Origin: Gammaproteobacteria bacterium
GTDB lineage: Bacteria; Pseudomonadota; Gammaproteobacteria; Steroidobacterales; Woeseiaceae
Assembly: GCA_013151645.1 (NCBI GenBank)
Contig: JAADHU010000010.1
Coordinates: forward strand, 1-64,000
Length of the DNA stretch: 64,000 bases
Direction of reading: 5' to 3'
Both the position numbers and the translations under genes were made by a program. Under the pieces are notes generated by a model. It did no database searches, was not told the origin of the DNA, and saw nothing but the letters and a program-made list of their open reading frames with translations. Shown piece after piece: positions 17,970 to 58,159 of the stretch; position 1 is the stretch's first letter; each line of letters begins with the position of its first letter.

Positions 17970-18716
17970 TTGCATGTCACAGACCCGCACTTGTTTGCAG
18001 ACCCGGGCGGGATTTTGCGGGGCACGGTGACGCATTCTTCCTTGCGCGATGTACTGGCGGATATCACCGCTTCAGACTGGCCTGCTGATTTCATCGCGAT
18101 GACCGGCGATGTGATTCAGGACGACAGCCGCGCCGCCTACGACCGCTTTCGCGATCTGATAGAACCGCTCGGTCTGCCTGTTTTTTGCGTACCCGGCAAT
18201 CACGATATACGTGAATTGATGCGTGATGCATTGTCGACATCGCCTTTTCAATATTGCGGCACGCTAGAACACGACAATTGGCTGGTTATCGGCGTGGACA
18301 GTTGTGTACGCGATAATGCGGCTGGATACGTCGAAAATACGGAACTGCAACGACTCGAAGAAATCATTGCCGGTACCGATGCAGAACACGTTCTCGTCTG
18401 CCTGCATCACCCACCCTTACCAACGGGCAGCAAATGGCTAGACTCCGTCGGCCTGAGCAATGCCGACGAATTTCTGCACAGAATCGAAGAAACCGGCAAA
18501 GTCAGGGCAGCCATTTTTGGTCACGTCCACCAGGCGTTCGACAGCCGGTACAACTCGATTCATATCATCGGCACACCATCGACCTGCCGGCAATTCAAGA
18601 AAGACAGCGATGATTTCGCGCTCGACGACAATCCACCGGCCTATCGGAGAATTTTGTTGCACTCTGATGGTTCCGTACAGTCGGAGCTAATATGGCTACC
18701 GGCAGAATCAAAATGA
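17970..18716 (+). CDS. cpdA: CpdA-like metallophosphoesterase
   Basis: Resembles class III 3',5'-cyclic-AMP phosphodiesterase. The dinuclear metal motifs are in order: D-x-H in TDPHLF, GDVIQD, GNHD, HHPPLP and GHVHQ. The start is uncertain. TTG 17970 is the nearest possible start codon but cuts into the first beta strand, since the upstream in-frame codons read IRVL, as expected for the family. The frame stays open back to 17859 with no ATG or GTG, so a rare start codon further upstream is possible. The next gene starts 11 bp after this stop codon, so the two are co-transcribed. The substrate could be another cyclic nucleotide or phosphodiester. Confidence 0.82.
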   Translation: MHVTDPHLFADPGGILRGTVTHSSLRDVLADITASDWPADFIAMTGDVIQDDSRAAYDRFRDLIEPLGLPVFCVPGNHDIRELMRDALSTSPFQYCGTLEHDNWLVIGVDSCVRDNAAGYVENTELQRLEEIIAGTDAEHVLVCLHHPPLPTGSKWLDSVGLSNADEFLHRIEETGKVRAAIFGHVHQAFDSRYNSIHIIGTPSTCRQFKKDSDDFALDDNPPAYRRILLHSDGSVQSELIWLPAESK

Positions 18717-18727
18717 AAGGATTCATA

Positions 18728-19609
18728 ATGTTCTACAGACTGCTCAGTGTGGCGTTCCTGATCACCGCATCAGGTATCGCGAGTACCGCCGAACATCCAC
18801 TGCCCATGTGGGAAATCGATGGCGAAAGTAATCGGGTTTATCTACTGGGTTCCGTACATTTGCTGCGCAAGCAGGACCATCCAATCCCCACGGCCATCGT
18901 CACCGCTTATGAGGATGCGGATACGCTGATCATGGAACTGGACATGGACGACCTCGATCCTGTCGCAACCCAGGCACTGATCAATGACCTTGGAATGATC
19001 AAAGGCGGCGGCACGCTAAGCGAACTTATGGGTACCGCCCTCTACGCTGAGGCCGCGCAGATTGCCGACGAGATCGGTATTCCCTTGAACATGCTTTCAG
19101 GCACAGAACCCTGGCTGGCAGCCATCAACGTCGAACAGCTTATTCTCATGAGAATAGGCTTCGATCCACAGTTTGGTGTTGAAAGCTTCCTTATGAAAAA
19201 GGCGGGCAACGATCATAAGGAAATTCTCGGACTGGAAAGTATTGAGGAACAACTCGGTTTCCTCGACAACATGTCACTCGACGCACAACGATCGTTGCTC
19301 ATGCAGACCTTGACCGAAAGCACCAACATGGCCGCAATGATGGACGAGCTTGTTACCGCATGGCGGTACGGTGACCTCAAGTATCTTGAGGAAAACATGC
19401 TCGCGGAAATGCAGAACTACCCCGAACTGTATGAAGCGCTGGTGGTTGCCCGCAACCGTAACTGGACGAAACAGATTGAGGCATTGCTTGCGGATGATCA
19501 GGACTATCTGATTATTGTGGGTGCGCTGCACCTGATCGGGGAAGACGGAGTACCGACTATGCTGCGGGCGCTTGGGAAAGAGCCGGTACAGATGCGGCAG
19601 GTGGAATAG
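18728..19609 (+). CDS. TraB/GumN family exported protein
   Basis: Belongs to the TraB/PrgY/GumN (TIKI-like) fold, proposed metalloproteases. The two diagnostic histidine motifs are present: YLLGSVHLL near the N-terminus and IVGALHLIGEDG near the C-terminus. ATG 18728 follows an AAAGGA site and gives a hydrophobic signal peptide ending around STA-EH. Earlier in-frame ATGs at 18692 and 18713 only lengthen the n-region. At 293 residues it is typical of proteobacterial members, whose substrates are unknown. It follows the CpdA-like gene directly. Location is predicted periplasmic. Confidence 0.82.
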   Translation: MFYRLLSVAFLITASGIASTAEHPLPMWEIDGESNRVYLLGSVHLLRKQDHPIPTAIVTAYEDADTLIMELDMDDLDPVATQALINDLGMIKGGGTLSELMGTALYAEAAQIADEIGIPLNMLSGTEPWLAAINVEQLILMRIGFDPQFGVESFLMKKAGNDHKEILGLESIEEQLGFLDNMSLDAQRSLLMQTLTESTNMAAMMDELVTAWRYGDLKYLEENMLAEMQNYPELYEALVVARNRNWTKQIEALLADDQDYLIIVGALHLIGEDGVPTMLRALGKEPVQMRQVE

Positions 19610-19721
19610 GTGGGATCGCTGTCCGGGCAAGACCGGCGGGAGGCACTGCTACTACGACCCTTTCCCCGTGGTAGAACACTATGAGCCGGCGTTTTGAGCG
19701 GCCACAACCTCGATCACATTC

Positions 19722-19802
19722 TGAGTGACGCCATGGGCGGGTGCCCGCCGATTGAGTCAGGGCCCTCCGAATGAGGTGGGTACCCGCCCATGGCATCACT
19801 CA
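19722..19802. repeat. Long palindromic repeat, copy 1
   Basis: Arms TGAGTGACGCCATGGGCGGG and CCCGCCCATGGCATCACTCA form a near-perfect hairpin. The central part (CGCCGATTGAGTCAGGGCCC then TCCGAATGAGGTGGGT) is almost identical in the second copy at 20572-20662. It lies between two convergent genes, so it may also end transcription. Confidence 0.85.
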
Positions 19803-19870
19803 AAATGCACACACACTGCTGACAACCGTGAAGATCTTGCCAGGAACAAGACGGGCTCGGTTTTCCGATT

Positions 19871-20524
19871 CTACTCGCCGATCAAATCCTTCCTCGCGAA
19901 AAAAACCTGTGCAAAGACAGCGTCACGATCTTGAATGTGCATTTTAGCCAGATCAATAGATGCTAACCCGCTCAAAGCAACGGCGAGTGAAACACCATTG
20001 TCCTCAAACGGCTGGTTGCCGAATGTTCGCACCAGCCCCTTGCACATCGTTCTTCGGCACTCCAGATTCGATAGCTGGTAACTGACCAGTGATTCAGTAT
20101 TTACGAACTCGGTTTGAATGTTGATCGCTTGCTGGTCGCTCCATGCCGGATCGACGAATTCTTCTGCAAACTGCCGTTCCAGGTTTTCGATCGTTGAAGT
20201 CAATGTGCCGGTCGCCAGCATTCCACTGGCGAACGCCTTCACGAATTCGGCCTGACGGCGCTGCTCGTCGACTAAACCGCCGTCGTCCGGGCTCACGTCT
20301 TCCTGCGGATCTTGCCTGCCGACTATGGCCTCAACGTCAGGCGGTTTTCCGCTGGCCGCTGTTCGCGTCGCTGGCTCCGGAACCGGCGCCAGCTCCATCG
20401 CTCGCATAGACTCCATTTGTATTTCAAGATCTTCGACCGATTGAGAGAGTCGAATATTCTGGTAGAACAACACTCCACTCGATACCGCCAGAAAAACGAT
20501 CGTAAGCCATCCAAAATTGTTCAT
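19871..20524 (-). CDS. Unrecognised membrane-anchored protein, palindrome-bracketed
   Basis: A 217-residue protein I do not recognise. Residues 5-21 form one hydrophobic segment with a short N-terminal tail, then a heptad-like acidic stretch (SQSVEDLEIQMESMRAMEL, about 27-45), a proline- and aspartate-rich linker (46-85) and a compact C-terminal domain (about 86-217). The C-terminal domain has a cysteine pair in ECRRTMC (Cys156, Cys161) that could form a disulfide. The likely topology is inner-membrane anchor with the soluble domain in the periplasm. The ATG at 20524 has only a weak GGGG site upstream. Copies of one palindromic repeat lie on both sides, and the gene converges with the TraB/GumN gene. 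No function is proposed. Confidence 0.7.
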   Translation of the reverse strand: MNNFGWLTIVFLAVSSGVLFYQNIRLSQSVEDLEIQMESMRAMELAPVPEPATRTAASGKPPDVEAIVGRQDPQEDVSPDDGGLVDEQRRQAEFVKAFASGMLATGTLTSTIENLERQFAEEFVDPAWSDQQAINIQTEFVNTESLVSYQLSNLECRRTMCKGLVRTFGNQPFEDNGVSLAVALSGLASIDLAKMHIQDRDAVFAQVFFARKDLIGE

Positions 20525-20571
20525 TCGTGCAATACCCCGAACACCGCCTGACGCAACTGAAGTAGTGATGA

Positions 20572-20662
20572 CGTTCCGAGTGACGCCGCGGGTGGGTACC
20601 CGCCGATTAAGTCAAGGCCCTCCGAATGAGGTGGGTTCCCACCCGCGGCGTCACTCGGAACG
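20572..20662. repeat. Long palindromic repeat, copy 2
   Basis: A perfect 25-bp inverted repeat: left arm 20572-20596 (starts CGTTCCGAGTGACGCC), right arm 20638-20662. Centre CGCCGATTAAGTCAAGGCCC then TCCGAATGAGGTGGGT nearly matches copy 1 at 19722-19802 in the same orientation. Where the arms differ between copies (CATGGGCGGG versus GCGGGTGGG), both arms differ together, so pairing is kept. Confidence 0.88.
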
Positions 20663-20683
20663 CTGGCACCCAATCGCACCCAC

Positions 20684-20848
20684 CTAAATCTCAACCATCT
20701 CGAAATCCTCCTTCCCGGCCCCACAATTCGGACACCGCCAGGATGCAGGAATATCGTCCCAGCGCGTGCCGGGCTCAATCCCTGCCTCAAGATCGCCGGT
20801 CTCCTCGTCGTAGACATAACCGCAAATGAGGCACATGTAGGTTTTCAT
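20684..20848 (-). CDS. rubA: Rubredoxin
   Basis: A 54-residue iron protein for one-electron transfer. The Fe(Cys)4 site is complete: Cys6 and Cys9 in MCLICG, Cys39 and Cys42 in RCPNCG. The family's [10 protein letters not shown] and aromatic core residues (Tyr4, Tyr11, Tyr13, Trp30, Trp37) are present. The reading begins at ATG 20848 and stops with TAG at 20684-20686. Electrons could go to an alkane hydroxylase, a diiron oxidase or an oxygen reductase, none of which is encoded here. It diverges from hemL across 110 bp, an arrangement known from other gammaproteobacteria. Confidence 0.95.
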
Positions 20849-20958
20849 GCTCTGACCTTCTGCCGAATCGACACTTCTGTCAACTACCGGCCAGGGCTGT
20901 CAGGGTTTCACAGGCCGGTGTGCTTCGGTAGCATGTGCACCTGTTAAGGAGAGAGTGT

Positions 20959-22233
20959 ATGAGTCTGTTTTCGGAAGCGAGTCGTGTCATTGCGGGCGGC
21001 GTCAATTCACCGGTGCGAGCCTTTGCGGGCGTCGGCGGCGAGCCGGTCTTTATCCGCAGTGCGGACGGTGCGTGGCTGCACACAGAAGACGGTCGACGCT
21101 TGATTGATTATGTCGGCTCATGGGGGCCGATGATACTTGGTCACGCACATCCGGCCGTGATCAACGCGGTCATTGAGACGGCAAAATCCGGTTTGAGTTT
21201 TGGCGCACCGTGTGTTTTGGAAACACAGCTCGCGCACAAGATCGGTGAATTCGTGCCGTCGATTGAACGAGTGCGCATGGTGAGTTCGGGGACCGAGGCG
21301 ACCATGAGCGCGATCCGCCTGGCACGCGGCTATACGGGACGCGATAAGATCATCAAGTTCGAAGGCTGCTATCACGGACATTCCGATTCGCTGCTGATCA
21401 AGGCCGGTTCGGGTGCGCTCACGCTGGGCGTTCCTTCGTCACCGGGAGTTCCTGCCGGACTGGCGAAAGACACGATTACGCTCGAATACAACAATGCCAC
21501 TGCCGTTGATGAAGCGTTCTCCGAACTGGATGAAGAAATCGCCTGCGTTATCGTAGAACCGATTGCCGGCAACATGAACATGGTACCGCCACAGGCAGGC
21601 TTTCTTGAGGCACTTCGGGAAGGCTGCAGCAAGGCCGGTGCTGTTCTGATTTTCGATGAGGTGATGACTGGATTTCGGGTCGCGAAAGGCGGCGCGCAAT
21701 CCCTGTACAAGATCACGCCGGACCTGACGACACTGGGCAAGATCGTGGGTGGCGGGCTGCCTTGTGCTGCGTTTGGCGGGCGTGCCGACATCATGGCGCA
21801 TTTGGCTCCCGATGGACCCGTTTACCAGGCAGGAACCCTGTCCGGCAATCCACTGGCGATGGCCGCGGGGCTGGCGACACTGCATGAGTTGGAGGCAGAA
21901 GATTTTTACGCGTCGCTCACTGCGACAACGTCACAACTTGTCGAAGGACTGGCGAGGCTCGCCGCAAAACACGGCATTCCACTGCAGACAGAATTCGAGG
22001 GTGGTATGTTCGGCATCCTGTTTTGCGATCAGGGGCCGGTGCGCCGCTTTAGTCAGGTTGCCGGCGCAAACGTAGAGCGGTTCCGCGCATTTTTTCACGG
22101 TATGCTCGAGAGGAATATTTATCTCGCACCCTCGGCGTTTGAAGCAGGGTTTGTATCATCCGCACACGGGGCAGAAGAAATCGAGGCTACACTTGCAGCG
22201 GCCGACGCCGTATTTAAAAAACTTGCTGAATAG
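20959..22233 (+). CDS. hemL: Glutamate-1-semialdehyde 2,1-aminomutase
   Basis: PLP-dependent step of C5 heme biosynthesis, giving 5-aminolevulinate. ATG 20959 follows AAGGAGAG and gives [20 protein letters not shown], the family N-terminus; a GTG 24 bp earlier was rejected. The PLP lysine lies in [17 protein letters not shown], and [14 protein letters not shown] and [10 protein letters not shown] are intact. At 424 residues it is full length. It is transcribed away from rubredoxin and ends directly against the convergent Lon-domain gene. Confidence 0.97.
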
Positions 22234-28295: not shown

Positions 28296-30335
28296 ATGGA
28301 AAACGAAACAGCTCTGTGGCTTGCCATGGGAGCCGGTGTACTGGCCATTCTGTACGGATTGGTGTCAGTCAAATGGATTCTGAAACAGCCGGCCGGCAAT
28401 GAGCGCATGCAGGAAATTGCTCTGGCGATTCAGGAAGGTGCCAACGCTTACATGAATCGCCAGTATTCGGCGATCGCTATCGTTGGTGTGGTGCTGTTCG
28501 CGGTGCTGTTTGCCGCCCTCGGCTGGCATACCGCTATCGGTTTCCTGATCGGCGCCGTGTTTTCGGGATTGGTCGGATACATCGGCATGTATGTCTCGGT
28601 ACGTGCGAACGTGAGAACCGCCGAAGCCGCGACGCTGGGTGTGAATCCGGCTCTGCGCATCGCGTTCCGCGGCGGTGCTATTACCGGACTGCTCGTCGTT
28701 GGTCTGGCATTGCTCGGTGTTGCCGGCTATTACTACGTGCTTACGAGCATGGGCGTTAACCTGGACGACACGATTCACGCCCTGGTCGGACTGGCTTTCG
28801 GTGGCTCGCTGATCTCCATCTTTGCGCGCCTGGGTGGCGGTATCTTTACCAAGGGCGCCGACGTTGGCGCCGACCTGGTGGGCAAAGTAGAAGCCGGCAT
28901 CCCGGAAGACGATCCACGCAACCCCGCCGTCATTGCCGACAACGTCGGCGACAACGTCGGCGACTGTGCCGGCATGGCAGCGGATTTGTTTGAAACCTAC
29001 GCGGTCACGATTATTGCGACCATGTTGCTTGGCAGCCTGCTCACCTCCACGCTCGGTGTTGAGGCAGTCTTGTATCCGCTGGTACTCGGCGCTGCATCGA
29101 TCGTTGCATCGATCATTGGCACCTTTTTCGTCAAGACATCGGACGGCGGCAAGATCATGGGCGCTCTCTACAAGGGCGTCATCGTTTCCGGTGTCCTTGC
29201 GGCGATCGCGTTTTACCCGATCACCAATATGATGATGGCGGCATCCGGTAACGCAACCGGAATCTACGGCGCTGCGCTGATTGGCCTGGCATTAACCGCC
29301 GCAATGGTGGTGATCACCGAGTACTACACCGGCACGGAATACAAGCCGGTACGAACCATTGCCGAGGCGTCAATGACGGGCGATGCGACCAATATCATCG
29401 CCGGCCTTGGTATTTCCATGAAAGCCACCGCGTTGCCGGTTATCGCTGTCTGCATGAGCATCTGGGGCGCGTTTGAACTCGCACCGGCCGGCGATGCAAT
29501 GGCGGGTTTGTACAACATCGCAATCGCCGCAACCGCCATGTTGTCGATGACCGGTGTCATCGTTGCACTTGATGCGTTTGGCCCTATCACGGATAACGCG
29601 GGTGGCATCGCCGAAATGTCGAAGTTGCCTGAGGACGTTCGCAAGATTACGGACCAGCTCGATGCCGTGGGAAACACGACCAAGGCCGTCACCAAAGGCT
29701 ACGCGATCGGATCTGCAGCGCTCGCCGCACTGGTCTTGTTCGCCGACTACACGAACGCGCTGGAAACCGCGAATATCATGGTCACTTTCGACTTGTCCGA
29801 CCACCTGGTCATTATCGGCTTGTTCCTGGGTGGCCTGGTGCCATTTTTGTTCGGCTCAATGGCCATGGAAGCCGTTGGACGAGCGGCGGGTTCGGTGGTA
29901 GAGGAAGTACGTCGACAGTTCCGCGAAATCGATGGCATCATGGAAGGCACCGGCAAGCCCGATTACAGCCGCGCCGTTGACCTGCTGACGAAGGCGGCGA
30001 TTAAGGAAATGATCCTGCCGTCATTGCTGCCAATTCTGGTGCCACTGGGCGTCGGTCTTTTGCTCGGTCCGAAAGCGTTGGGCGGCTTGTTACTCGGCAC
30101 CATTATTACCGGACTGTTTCTCGCGATCTCAATGACCACCGGCGGCGGTGCATGGGATAACGCCAAGAAATACATCGAGGATGGCAACTGCGGTGGTAAG
30201 GGAACCGATGCTCACAATGCTGCGATAACCGGAGACACGGTGGGTGACCCGTACAAAGATACAGCGGGCCCTGCAATCAACCCGCTGATCAAGATCATCA
30301 ACATCGTTGCCTTGCTCATGGTGCCGTTGCTCTAG
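28296..30335 (+). CDS. hppA: Proton-pumping membrane pyrophosphatase, K+-independent type
   Basis: Hydrolyses PPi while pumping H+ across the inner membrane, or makes PPi in reverse. The catalytic [11 protein letters not shown] starts at residue 189, and the acidic [19 protein letters not shown] follows. The ion-type segment reads [15 protein letters not shown] with Lys463 and Thr466; K+-dependent enzymes have Ala and Gly there, so this is predicted to be K+-independent and H+-specific. Its 679 residues and about 16 membrane segments are as expected. AGGAGA lies 7 bp before ATG 28296. A strong terminator follows 24 bp after the stop. It lies downstream of pfp. Confidence 0.96.
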
Positions 30336-48851: not shown

Positions 48852-50039
48852 TCATAAATTGTGCGCCCTGTCGCCGAAAGAAAATGCATCGGGTACCTGC
48901 ACGGCACCTTTGCACAATCCCATACACTTGAAGTGCTCACCCATTTCGCTGGGCAGCGTAAGCAGTTTAATCTGTCGCGACAACTCGATCTGCTCGACCT
49001 GGGTCAGCGCCGCAAAGTCTGCCAGCTCATTTTCCAGCCCGCCGTTCATCAGGAATAGAGCCTGAGTCACAAAACCCGCAATTTCTGCCCCGTGCGCAAA
49101 GGCAGCATCCGCTACGCCGGAGAAATTCACCCACGCAGTAATGTCCTGAATACCCGGGTAAATCAGCGGCTCGTTGTGCGCATGGTGACGAAAATGGCAA
49201 CGCAGCCAACCGAGGTCACGCTCCGCCGCATAGTATTCGTGGCACGTAACGCCGTAGTCGAAAAGAAACACAACACCCTCGTCAACCGCGGCCAACAAGT
49301 CGGATATCCAGCCTTTCAGTCCGAGCGACACTTCCGATGTATAGCCGTCCGCGAATTGACCGCCGATTTTAGCCTCGATGTCCAATACCTGCTGTCGCAG
49401 CGGTGTACCTGCAGGGCGCGTCTGATACACAAAATTTCCGTCACTGTATCCCACACACAATTGCAACACGTCGTCCGGCGAGCGGACGAAGCGTTCAACC
49501 GGCAGCGCATCCAACACCTCATTGGCAACCACCACGCCCCTGAACTTTTCGGGCAAGGCATCAATCCAGACCACGATGGATGCTAATTCGGGAACTTCCG
49601 CTATGAGCTTTTCCTGTTGTCGTGCGCACAGTTCCGGCGATACTTCCAGAATCTGATAGCTCGCCGGCAACGCATCGAGCTCGGCCAGCGTCTTGAGCAG
49701 CGTCACTGCCAATGCACCGCTACCCGCACCGAACTCGAGAATCCCGCCCTGCAAGGCGCGGATGGACGGTGCCGCCTGCTGAGCCAGCACGCGGCCGAAC
49801 AGCGGCGATATTTCCGGGGCGGTGACAAAATCGCCGCTGCCACCAAACTTCACATTGCCGGCGGTGTAGTAACCCAGGCCCGGCGCATACAGGGCGTGCT
49901 GCATGAATTCGGCCAGACCGATCATGCCTCCTGCCGCCTCAATCCGGGCACGTATATATCTGGCTACGCGACCGCTGTGTGCAAGGCTCGTGGTATCCGG
50001 GACAGGCAGTCCCTCTGGTATTTTCGGTTCAGGTTGCAT
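48852..50039 (-). CDS. MidA-type (COG1565) SAM-dependent methyltransferase
   Basis: Belongs to the NDUFAF7/MidA group, arginine or other methyltransferases with a Rossmann fold. Seen are GYYTAGNVKFGGSGDFVTAP near residue 55, the SAM-binding EFGAGSGALAVTLL near 107 and the ANEVLDALPVERF motif near 175. ATG 50039 is the chosen start; the longer reading to 50186 would overlap the folM promoter region. Its 395 residues are usual. It lies 16 bp upstream of uppP on the same strand. Its bacterial target is not known. Confidence 0.9.
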   Translation of the reverse strand: MQPEPKIPEGLPVPDTTSLAHSGRVARYIRARIEAAGGMIGLAEFMQHALYAPGLGYYTAGNVKFGGSGDFVTAPEISPLFGRVLAQQAAPSIRALQGGILEFGAGSGALAVTLLKTLAELDALPASYQILEVSPELCARQQEKLIAEVPELASIVVWIDALPEKFRGVVVANEVLDALPVERFVRSPDDVLQLCVGYSDGNFVYQTRPAGTPLRQQVLDIEAKIGGQFADGYTSEVSLGLKGWISDLLAAVDEGVVFLFDYGVTCHEYYAAERDLGWLRCHFRHHAHNEPLIYPGIQDITAWVNFSGVADAAFAHGAEIAGFVTQALFLMNGGLENELADFAALTQVEQIELSRQIKLLTLPSEMGEHFKCMGLCKGAVQVPDAFSFGDRAHNL

Positions 50040-57838: not shown

Positions 57839-58159
57839 TCTTTCTTTTCTTTGTGTTGGTGTTGGCAAGTTCGCCCCTCACGCACACTGTCTACGCTCTG
57901 TCGCCTAGAATGGATAATGCGTTCAGCTGTTCTCTCAAATTCAGCTAAGAACTCTGTGCCGAGATTCGTTCGCTGAGAATTGTAATAATTTACGCAAGCT
58001 TCGAGCTCTATCGAGATAGCCCGCTAACGTTCTAGCTAACTTGCGCCAAGTATCTGGCGCAGTTCGTGCAATTGAAAATATGAACCACCGTGCACGAACT
58101 GTGACAGATACTGCCCGGCGGCAAGTTCAGCGATTTGTTAGGCGGACCCTGCCTCGTCG
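57839..58159. other. 321-bp gap between tRNA and SnoaL-like gene, holding an attC-like site
   Basis: The first 170 bp after the tRNA is T-rich (TCTTTCTTTTCTTT at the start) with nothing recognisable. The part from about 58022 to 58143 is the attC-like hairpin listed separately. Confidence 0.6.
58022..58143 (-). repeat. Integron attC-like recombination site
   Basis: A long three-block hairpin: AACTTGC (58038-58044) with GCAAGTT (58121-58127), AGTATCTG (58049-58056) with CAGATACT (58105-58112) and CAGTTCGTGCA (58060-58070) with TGCACGAACTG (58091-58101). On the minus strand it starts with GCCTAAC (R'' type RYYYAAC), 16 nt after the stop codon of the SnoaL-like gene, as in gene cassettes. The far end, GTTAGCT or GTTAGCG, is only a partial match to GTTRRRY. 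No integrase gene is near. Confidence 0.55.

Follow-up and report, generated by a model that had tools for sequence, protein, structure and literature searches.

Among the palindromic repeats that have been described, REPs are elements that measure 20-40 bp and carry an unpaired tag, GTAG or CGTC, at one end, and those of the CGTC type have stems of 8-9 bp and loops of 4-5 nt; many GTAG and CGTC copies are probably transcribed (PMC3733652, in the portion considered here). Their copy number is given as more than 100 per genome (PMC2817692, excerpted part). In inverted repeats near terminators, the spacers change more and the arms are conserved, according to the sections of PMC13155455 used here.

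Here we describe two palindromes in a stretch of gammaproteobacterial DNA of 64,000 nucleotides (the window). The initial annotation had noted them as flanking a gene that it did not recognise, and had proposed either a mobile or REP-bracketed gene or a repeat family acting as terminators at both ends. We found that they belong to a dispersed family, whose members we call GAG-loop hairpins. Like the GTAG and CGTC REPs, as these are characterized in the same portion of PMC3733652, GAG-loop hairpins are dispersed palindromes that occur singly or as close dimers 3' of genes, in convergent or unidirectional spacers. Unlike them, they carry the family's tag in the loop, have longer arms and loops, and show no enrichment of either end tag at the hairpin feet (GTAG in 1/72 versus 4/72 in the background, CGTC in 8/72 versus 5/72). 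By narrow patterns, 9 copies were counted in the window genome and between 5 and 24 in each of three genomes belonging to genus g3, all lower bounds, versus far more for classic REPs. The family is REP-like by placement and behaviour, and stands outside the GTAG/CGTC superfamilies by their defining tags.

The TIR repeats of TIRYT transposases, in the portion of PMC3733652 considered, are also moderately abundant, in part self-complementary, and arranged in dimers or clusters. The ends of GAG-loop hairpins, inspected by eye, differ from them in lacking the motif GGGGWSAS, and no adjoining Y1 transposase gene was found. A motif fitting GGGGWSAS is carried by another kind of hairpin, GGGGTCAG, in genome G013 at the sites A and B described below. 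The inverted repeats at gene ends in the consulted sections of PMC13155455 are likewise located just past stop codons; in GAG-loop hairpins, however, the spacer is conserved, the arms vary and there is no T-tract. The pattern is thus reversed with respect to that part of PMC13155455, with the spacer as the conserved signal and the arms free to change if they remain paired. The likeness to integron attC sites, discussed in the part of PMC8266576 considered here, lies in palindromes acting as folded single strands. We recognised no description of the GAG-loop hairpin family in the PMC literature.

At 22 Y1-transposase (PF01797) loci, distributed over 11 of 16 genomes (the other five gave no match), no GAG-loop hairpin was present in the 2.1-3.3 kb examined, and mobilisation by a RAYT was rejected on this ground. 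Integron attC sites carry R' and R'' boxes at their ends, unlike the GAG-loop hairpins, which have a conserved centre and not conserved ends; boxes of this type were found at the feet of 0 of 72 hairpins, and an attC identity was rejected.

Results

Two hairpins on either side of ORF217

Hairpin copy 1 (19712..19808) lies between the 3' ends of a TraB/PrgY/GumN family gene (18692..19609, plus strand; PF01963, 2.3e-69) and of ORF217, an orphan ORF of 217 amino acids on the minus strand (19871..20524) with an N-terminal hydrophobic stretch, as read from the sequence. Copy 2 (20567..20663) lies 5' of ORF217 and 3' of the stop codon of a rubredoxin gene (20684..20848, minus strand, 54 amino acids; PF00301, 3e-23). 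It lies 21 nt past this stop codon, the gap being counted from its arms at 20572-20662. A single 217-residue ORF, flanked by both palindromes, is therefore present as initially annotated.

Each copy is 97 nt long. The two have the same orientation, with the plus strand as loop strand, are identical at 80 of 97 bases, and are 855 bp apart from start to start. Arms of 33 nt, 88% (copy 1) and 94% (copy 2) complementary, enclose a conserved 25-nt loop, which reads GATTGAGTCAGGGCCCTCCGAATGA in copy 1 (19750..19774, plus strand) and GATTAAGTCAAGGCCCTCCGAATGA in copy 2 (20605..20629, plus strand). The core sequence was matched without any mismatch at positions 19747 and 20602. The near-identical centre and common orientation that had been noted are thereby confirmed, and the coordinate of about 20746 that had been given for the core is wrong. 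A third core match in the window, at 49817, has 3 mismatches (shuffle mean 0.35) and was treated as chance. When folding was compared with 200 dinucleotide shuffles, each strand of each copy gave a z value between -7.5 and -9.8, and 0 shuffles were as good. The window contains six inverted repeats whose arms reach 20 nt or more within 200 bp, and the copies are the longest two; other inverted repeats of the window include those at 28856-28962 (30 nt, 87%) and 58049-58112 (22 nt, 91%).

Between the copies, five arm pairs have both partners changed (A-T/G-C, T-A/C-G, A-T/G-C, T-A/C-G and C-G/T-A), which bears out the earlier observation that the arms change together and leave the hairpin intact. 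In four other pairs a single partner is changed; going from copy 1 to copy 2, a mismatch or wobble becomes a Watson-Crick pair in three of them, and one becomes T.T. No target duplication was seen at either copy. An Rfam scan of 19500-21000 gave no match above any family's gathering score, and the sub-threshold matches were MIR918 (30.6 vs 268) and MIR405 (21.8 vs 102) at copy 1 and sX5 (20.3 vs 50) inside ORF217.

That ORF217 is coding is plausible, not proven. Its codon score (0.064 per codon) is below the median of the 43 called ORFs (0.104); two called ORFs score below it, and several uncalled, mostly overlapping ORFs score above it. It had no match in Pfam, NCBIfam or PHROGs, no relative in viral contigs or plasmids, and none at E <=0.001 among 59 further genomes of the order. 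A PADLOC match was weak (E 0.04) and was discounted, one PDB match had an E value of 0.39, and a single-sequence structure model, with a mean pLDDT of 46, was not used.

The hairpins belong to a dispersed family

Searches of the 3.96-Mb window genome (G000) with arm letters found only copies 1 and 2, because the arms vary between copies. When copy 2 was searched against 107 genomes of the taxonomic family, partial matches were obtained elsewhere in the window genome and in that of a congener, G001; they had the loop in common and different arms. The loop GAGTCAAGGCCCTCCGARTGA had nine matches in the window genome at <=3 mismatches, and the reversed-pattern control had 0. The ends of contigs C25 and C49, both among the nine, appear to hold two parts of a single hairpin that the assembly has split; a further match (C63) is without a left arm. 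With a slightly wider loop pattern at <=2 mismatches, two of the 107 genomes gave matches, namely the window genome (8) and G001 (3); the reversed control had a match in one other of the 107, and 0 in these two. An exact scan for the loop in 84,980 species genomes, outside which the window's own genome may fall, returned one stretch, JADFNG010000024.1.

A covariance model built from ten copies found hairpins in 10 of the 107 genomes (E <=0.1), some of them counted twice, once per strand, and selected partly by pairing. In genus g3, a pattern of loop letters alone matched three genomes, with 24, 17 and 5 occurrences (control, 0). A general model, R2, built from 31 copies, gave matches in 25 of 396 genomes of the order at E <=0.001, belonging to 11 of 72 genera and to families f1, f10, f11 and f15, and in a class-wide sample matches were obtained in 3 of 369 genomes at E <=1e-4, all three within the same order. 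As the model scans scored 13-41 candidates per genome, and those with R2 only 13-14, copy numbers and absences from them are lower bounds. Among 18 R2 loci that were read, one (L192, in G388) was without the loop and in another (L183, in G073) the loop was poor. The suggestion that the palindromes form a repeat family, to be sought by its centre across this genome and its relatives, was thus borne out, and a private bracket of one gene was rejected, the hairpins being members of a dispersed family. A phage origin was also rejected; the g3 loop pattern had 0 exact matches in viral contigs, in which ORF217 has no relative either.

Seven of 13 hairpin matches in the window genome lie <400 nt from a contig end (expected 1.7%), at ends of C10, C25, C31, C45, C49 and C82, which indicates that the hairpins seem to break assembly. 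A 68-bp palindrome at the end of C49 is probably a fold-back artefact, and two pairs of contig ends resemble halves of one hairpin. In G046, hairpins with divergent loops occur in pairs (minus, plus) at six places (L215, L216 and L218-L221), with starts 225-334 bp apart and unlike DNA between them.

A conserved loop between drifting, paired arms

In an alignment of ten copies with 29 pairs, 94.4% of the cells are standard pairs and 27 of the 29 pairs show two-sided changes. Covariation was 0.808 versus 0.244 in shuffles, a value reached by 0/500. On average, copies share 50% of arm positions and 81% of loop positions. An alignment of 31 copies over four genera gave a covariation of 0.761 versus 0.223 in shuffles (0/500), with two of five measures weak relative to the shuffles (double-change pairs, 90/500; pair types, 62/500). 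Across the family, most arms are of about 20-37 bp and most loops of 20-30 nt. Most model-found copies contain the loop blocks GAGYGAGT(T/C) and (T)CCGAGYGA, and 39 of the 44 distinct g3 loops with enough flank have arms that are at least 70% Watson-Crick. The loop (GAGYGAGT...TCCGAGYGA) is the tag of the family. The idea that the arms are inverted target duplications was dropped, since the arms of most copies align as homologous, diverged sequences.

Tandem sheared G.A pairing is known from nucleic-acid chemistry, and we applied it to the loop. In the 31 copies, opposed positions of the loop blocks are G.A in 26/31, A.G in 26, G-C or G-T in 20, and C-G, T-G or T-A in 30; at further opposed positions, G.A is found in 29/31, A.G in 30, and G-C, A-T or G-T in 31. 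Changes in the loop from C-G to T-A and from G-C to A-T are compensatory. Through the loop blocks, the helix can extend as two tandem G.A modules. On the other strand the G.A positions are C.T mismatches, so the extended structure would form on one strand only.

Wobbles in the arms, counted on the loop strand, were G.T in 40 and A.C in 15 distinct contexts (p 0.001), in a count that left out 5 of 44 comparable g3 loops with <70% Watson-Crick pairing. By genus the ratio was 28:10 in g3, 4:3 in g1 and 8:2 in g8 and g10, the asymmetry being uninformative in g1 and the g1 and g8/g10 sets having been gathered partly via pairing. A count of 46:9 was set aside, as it included false rows and copies found through pairing. 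Relative to the local GC skew, 14 matches were on the same and 21 on the opposite strand when the two weakest of 37 were omitted; a replication-strand bias is absent, and this candidate was rejected.

Placement at gene ends

Seventy loci were scanned for hairpins, giving 81 hairpins, of which 60 passed the loop regular expression. To reach the set of 72 hairpins counted here, false or duplicate rows (L099_1683, L103_1377, L105_1685, L066_1592 and L073_1640) were removed, as were L032 and L072, which are fold-back records at contig ends. Added were L032 and L031, whose limits were set by hand, both window copies and more loops from g3. Twenty of the 70 loci have no row in it; most, including most of the G010 copies, are out of reach of the gapless arm scan, and some are duplicates or cut by contig ends.

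Called genes were present on both sides of 56 hairpins. With a home-made gene caller that misses small genes, and with copies at orthologous sites counted separately, 29 of these spacers are convergent, 16 + 11 unidirectional and 0 divergent. By comparison, 9 of 26 window spacers of at least 30 nt are divergent (Fisher p 1e-5). The G001 locus L012 was counted as unidirectional though convergent because the caller missed the rubredoxin gene, and two of the 72 hairpins were flagged within a called ORF. In nine 20-kb regions of G100, chosen for containing hairpins, the hairpin spacers are 8 convergent, 5 unidirectional and 0 divergent, and 17 of 81 spacers overall are divergent; as the regular expression of this spacer survey missed all G046 and window loops, only G100 and g3 rows were used. 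The absence of divergent placement (0/56) excludes a palindrome that occurs at random sites with no link to genes. Other members, single or paired, lie 3' of genes for a class II tRNA synthetase, a lyase, an Lrp/AsnC regulator and a UvrD-like helicase, the synthetase being presumably of the lysS type and the lyase of the argH type.

The position between convergent genes is skewed. In 24 of the 29 convergent cases, the closer of the two genes is the one in whose mRNA the loop runs backwards (p 0.0005), and for 44 hairpins versus 18 the nearest gene end is a stop with the reverse complement of the loop in its mRNA. A T-tract (>=7 T in 15) rarely follows the hairpins (1/72 on the loop strand, 6/70 on the other strand), and a scan of 19550-20950, limited to loops of 3-8 nt, gave 0 terminator-like sites. 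Ordinary intrinsic terminators were rejected, as the T-tract is lacking. What stands of the proposal of a terminator repeat family is the repeat family and, by position, hairpins at 3' ends; intrinsic termination does not.

Orthologous sites within and between genera

By their flanking genes, three hairpin sites are common to the window genome and G001 (TraB/rubredoxin, LTXXQ-protein/response-regulator and Lrp/AsnC). A fourth is probable, with an argH-type lyase in G000, a TfoX-type gene in G001 and similar hairpin arms. In five orthologous hairpin pairs, arm identity is 0.83, 0.77, 0.71, 0.75 and 0.89 (two with 8 gap columns) and loop identity ranges from 19/23 to 21/22. The orthologous arms (0.71-0.89) compare with 0.44-0.56 identity at 4-fold sites in five flanking genes. 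In addition, a hairpin follows a lysS-type gene in both genera, at 42 nt in G000 (g1) and at 38 nt in G018 (g3).

At the site matching that of the window, G001, whose genome is 82% complete, has one hairpin and no ORF217, and the ORF is also absent elsewhere in the available sequence of this 82% complete genome. A relative without the gene that retains one palindrome, the case to be looked for according to the initial annotation, therefore exists in the sole congener examined. The TraB-side flank of the G001 hairpin resembles that of copy 1, and its rubredoxin-side flank that of copy 2. The stretch from TraB to this hairpin (L012 1593-1883) measures about 290 bp in G001, part of a 97-aa ORF, versus about 107 bp in the window. 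Identity to the G001 hairpin is 82/97 and 77/97, and that between copies 1 and 2 is 80/97; the window copies are about as distant from each other as from the G001 copy, so that the pair is not recent. Of the 17 positions that distinguish the window copies, 11 have the base of copy 1 in G001 and 6 that of copy 2, and the two kinds are interspersed. With the three hairpins about equidistant and these agreements interspersed, gain and loss of ORF217 are indistinguishable. The ORF would have been either lost from G001 by deletion between direct copies, or gained in the window lineage.

Among g3 congeners, three GAG-loop sites were compared in this way. At site A, a GAG-loop hairpin is found in G018, a GGGGTCAG hairpin in G013 and a GGATACATTTT hairpin in G003. 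Site B has a GAG-loop hairpin in G018 and a GGGGTCAG hairpin in G013. At site C, the GAG-loop hairpin is in G013, a GGATACATTTT hairpin is in G003, and G018 has a weak inverted repeat (score 9, GTAG-type context). Hairpins scoring at least 11 are infrequent, numbering 10 in 79.7 kb if those with a GAG loop are counted. Such a hairpin, of another class, is present in 4/5 congener spacers, and 4/25 non-divergent g3 spacers have a hairpin of such a score (p 0.003); the comparison has a small base sample and is not fully independent, one of the four being probably site A in G013. The sharing of sites among hairpin classes may reflect either selective replacement or a common insertion hot spot. GGGGTCAGACCACCATT and GGGGCCGGATACATTTT hairpins are found at g3 gene ends (L253, L255, L254 and L256). 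Taken together, the patchy distribution, the near-identical g3 copies and the finding of GAG-loop hairpins at sites A and B in a single species suggest that the hairpins spread.

Discussion

We consider it probable that both palindromes belong to a REP-like family of one proteobacterial order that has its tag in the loop and whose members serve as hairpins at 3' ends, with ORF217 as a bystander. The function at 3' ends is inferred from position. In this family, a strand-specific factor would recognise the loop on a folded single strand, and recognition of the loop would spread or maintain the elements, much in the way that TnpA-REP acts on GTAG REPs. In an established element, the stem would act as a 3'-end hairpin, separating transcription units or protecting mRNA ends. 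A more far-reaching version of this reading is that the hairpins form a third, loop-tagged class of mobile palindromic repeats, whose tandem sheared G.A loop would be read by a strand-specific enzyme other than a RAYT, and that GAG-loop hairpins, GGGGTCAG TIRs, GGATACATTTT hairpins and GTAG REPs interchange at the same gene ends because the cell needs some hairpin there; this we offer tentatively, as a possibility on the doubtful side.

Two other explanations take the hairpins to be immobile or their pairing to be unselected. The elements could act in RNA alone, as factor-dependent terminators or mRNA-stabilising hairpins that are inherited vertically and bound at the loop by an RNA-binding protein. 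Their 3' placement (0/56 divergent), the occurrence of G000 and G001 hairpins in the same gene neighbourhoods with arms 71-89% identical versus 44-56% at 4-fold sites, and the hairpin after a lysS-type gene in both g1 (42 nt) and g3 (38 nt) are consistent with such a role. However, the mRNA of the nearest stop mostly carries the reverse complement of the loop (44 vs 18), and the wobbles and G.A pairs favour the other strand; moreover, T-tracts are absent, and the patchy distribution, the near-identical g3 copies and the occurrence of GAG-loop hairpins at sites A and B in just one species argue against purely vertical inheritance. We regard an exclusive RNA role as rather unlikely. A still less likely explanation is that the arms pair without selection and only the loop is constrained. 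Template switching during replication can copy a mutation of one arm into the other, a process known as quasipalindrome correction. The high pairing of the arms is what it would produce, with 424/437 Watson-Crick pairs in g1 (14 hairpins, with limits set by pairing) and 258/284 in a loop-chosen alignment, in which the arms are about 50% different between copies. Correction should be strand-symmetric, yet G.T wobbles outnumber A.C by 40 to 15; orthologous arms are more conserved than 4-fold sites, and many g3 copies share identical internal mismatches, neither of which favours this process.

The remaining explanation concerns ORF217, which could be a mobile cassette or composite element ended by the two hairpins, integron-like or transposon-like. 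It would account for the single hairpin without ORF217 at the matching site in G001 and for the lack of relatives in 59 genomes of the order, Pfam, NCBIfam, PHROGs and plasmids. Against it, hairpins elsewhere adjoin ordinary genes, attC boxes are found at 0/72, no recombinase was seen by eye among the ORFs adjoining the window copies, and the pair is not recent (80/97, versus 82/97 and 77/97 to G001); we judge it quite improbable. The initial proposal that the palindromes bracket or mobilise ORF217 in particular is accordingly unsupported, as other members adjoin ordinary genes and nothing shows the hairpins moving ORF217. Within the favoured reading of a loop-tagged 3'-end family, we infer that the ORF is a bystander between two hairpin copies.

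The family serves as a natural experiment on which feature of a palindromic repeat is recognised. As unrelated hairpin classes occupy the same gene ends, the question of whether REPs are selfish or useful becomes directly testable. A separate GTAG-type REP (TGTAGGAGCGTCACC...) is repeated in G000 and G001, and a similar one is present in G018; the loci concerned are L026 (G000:C74, 974-1418), L031, L075, L076 and L090. Five of its inverted repeats follow one another in the spacer of two genes that lies upstream of the hairpin on the lysS side.
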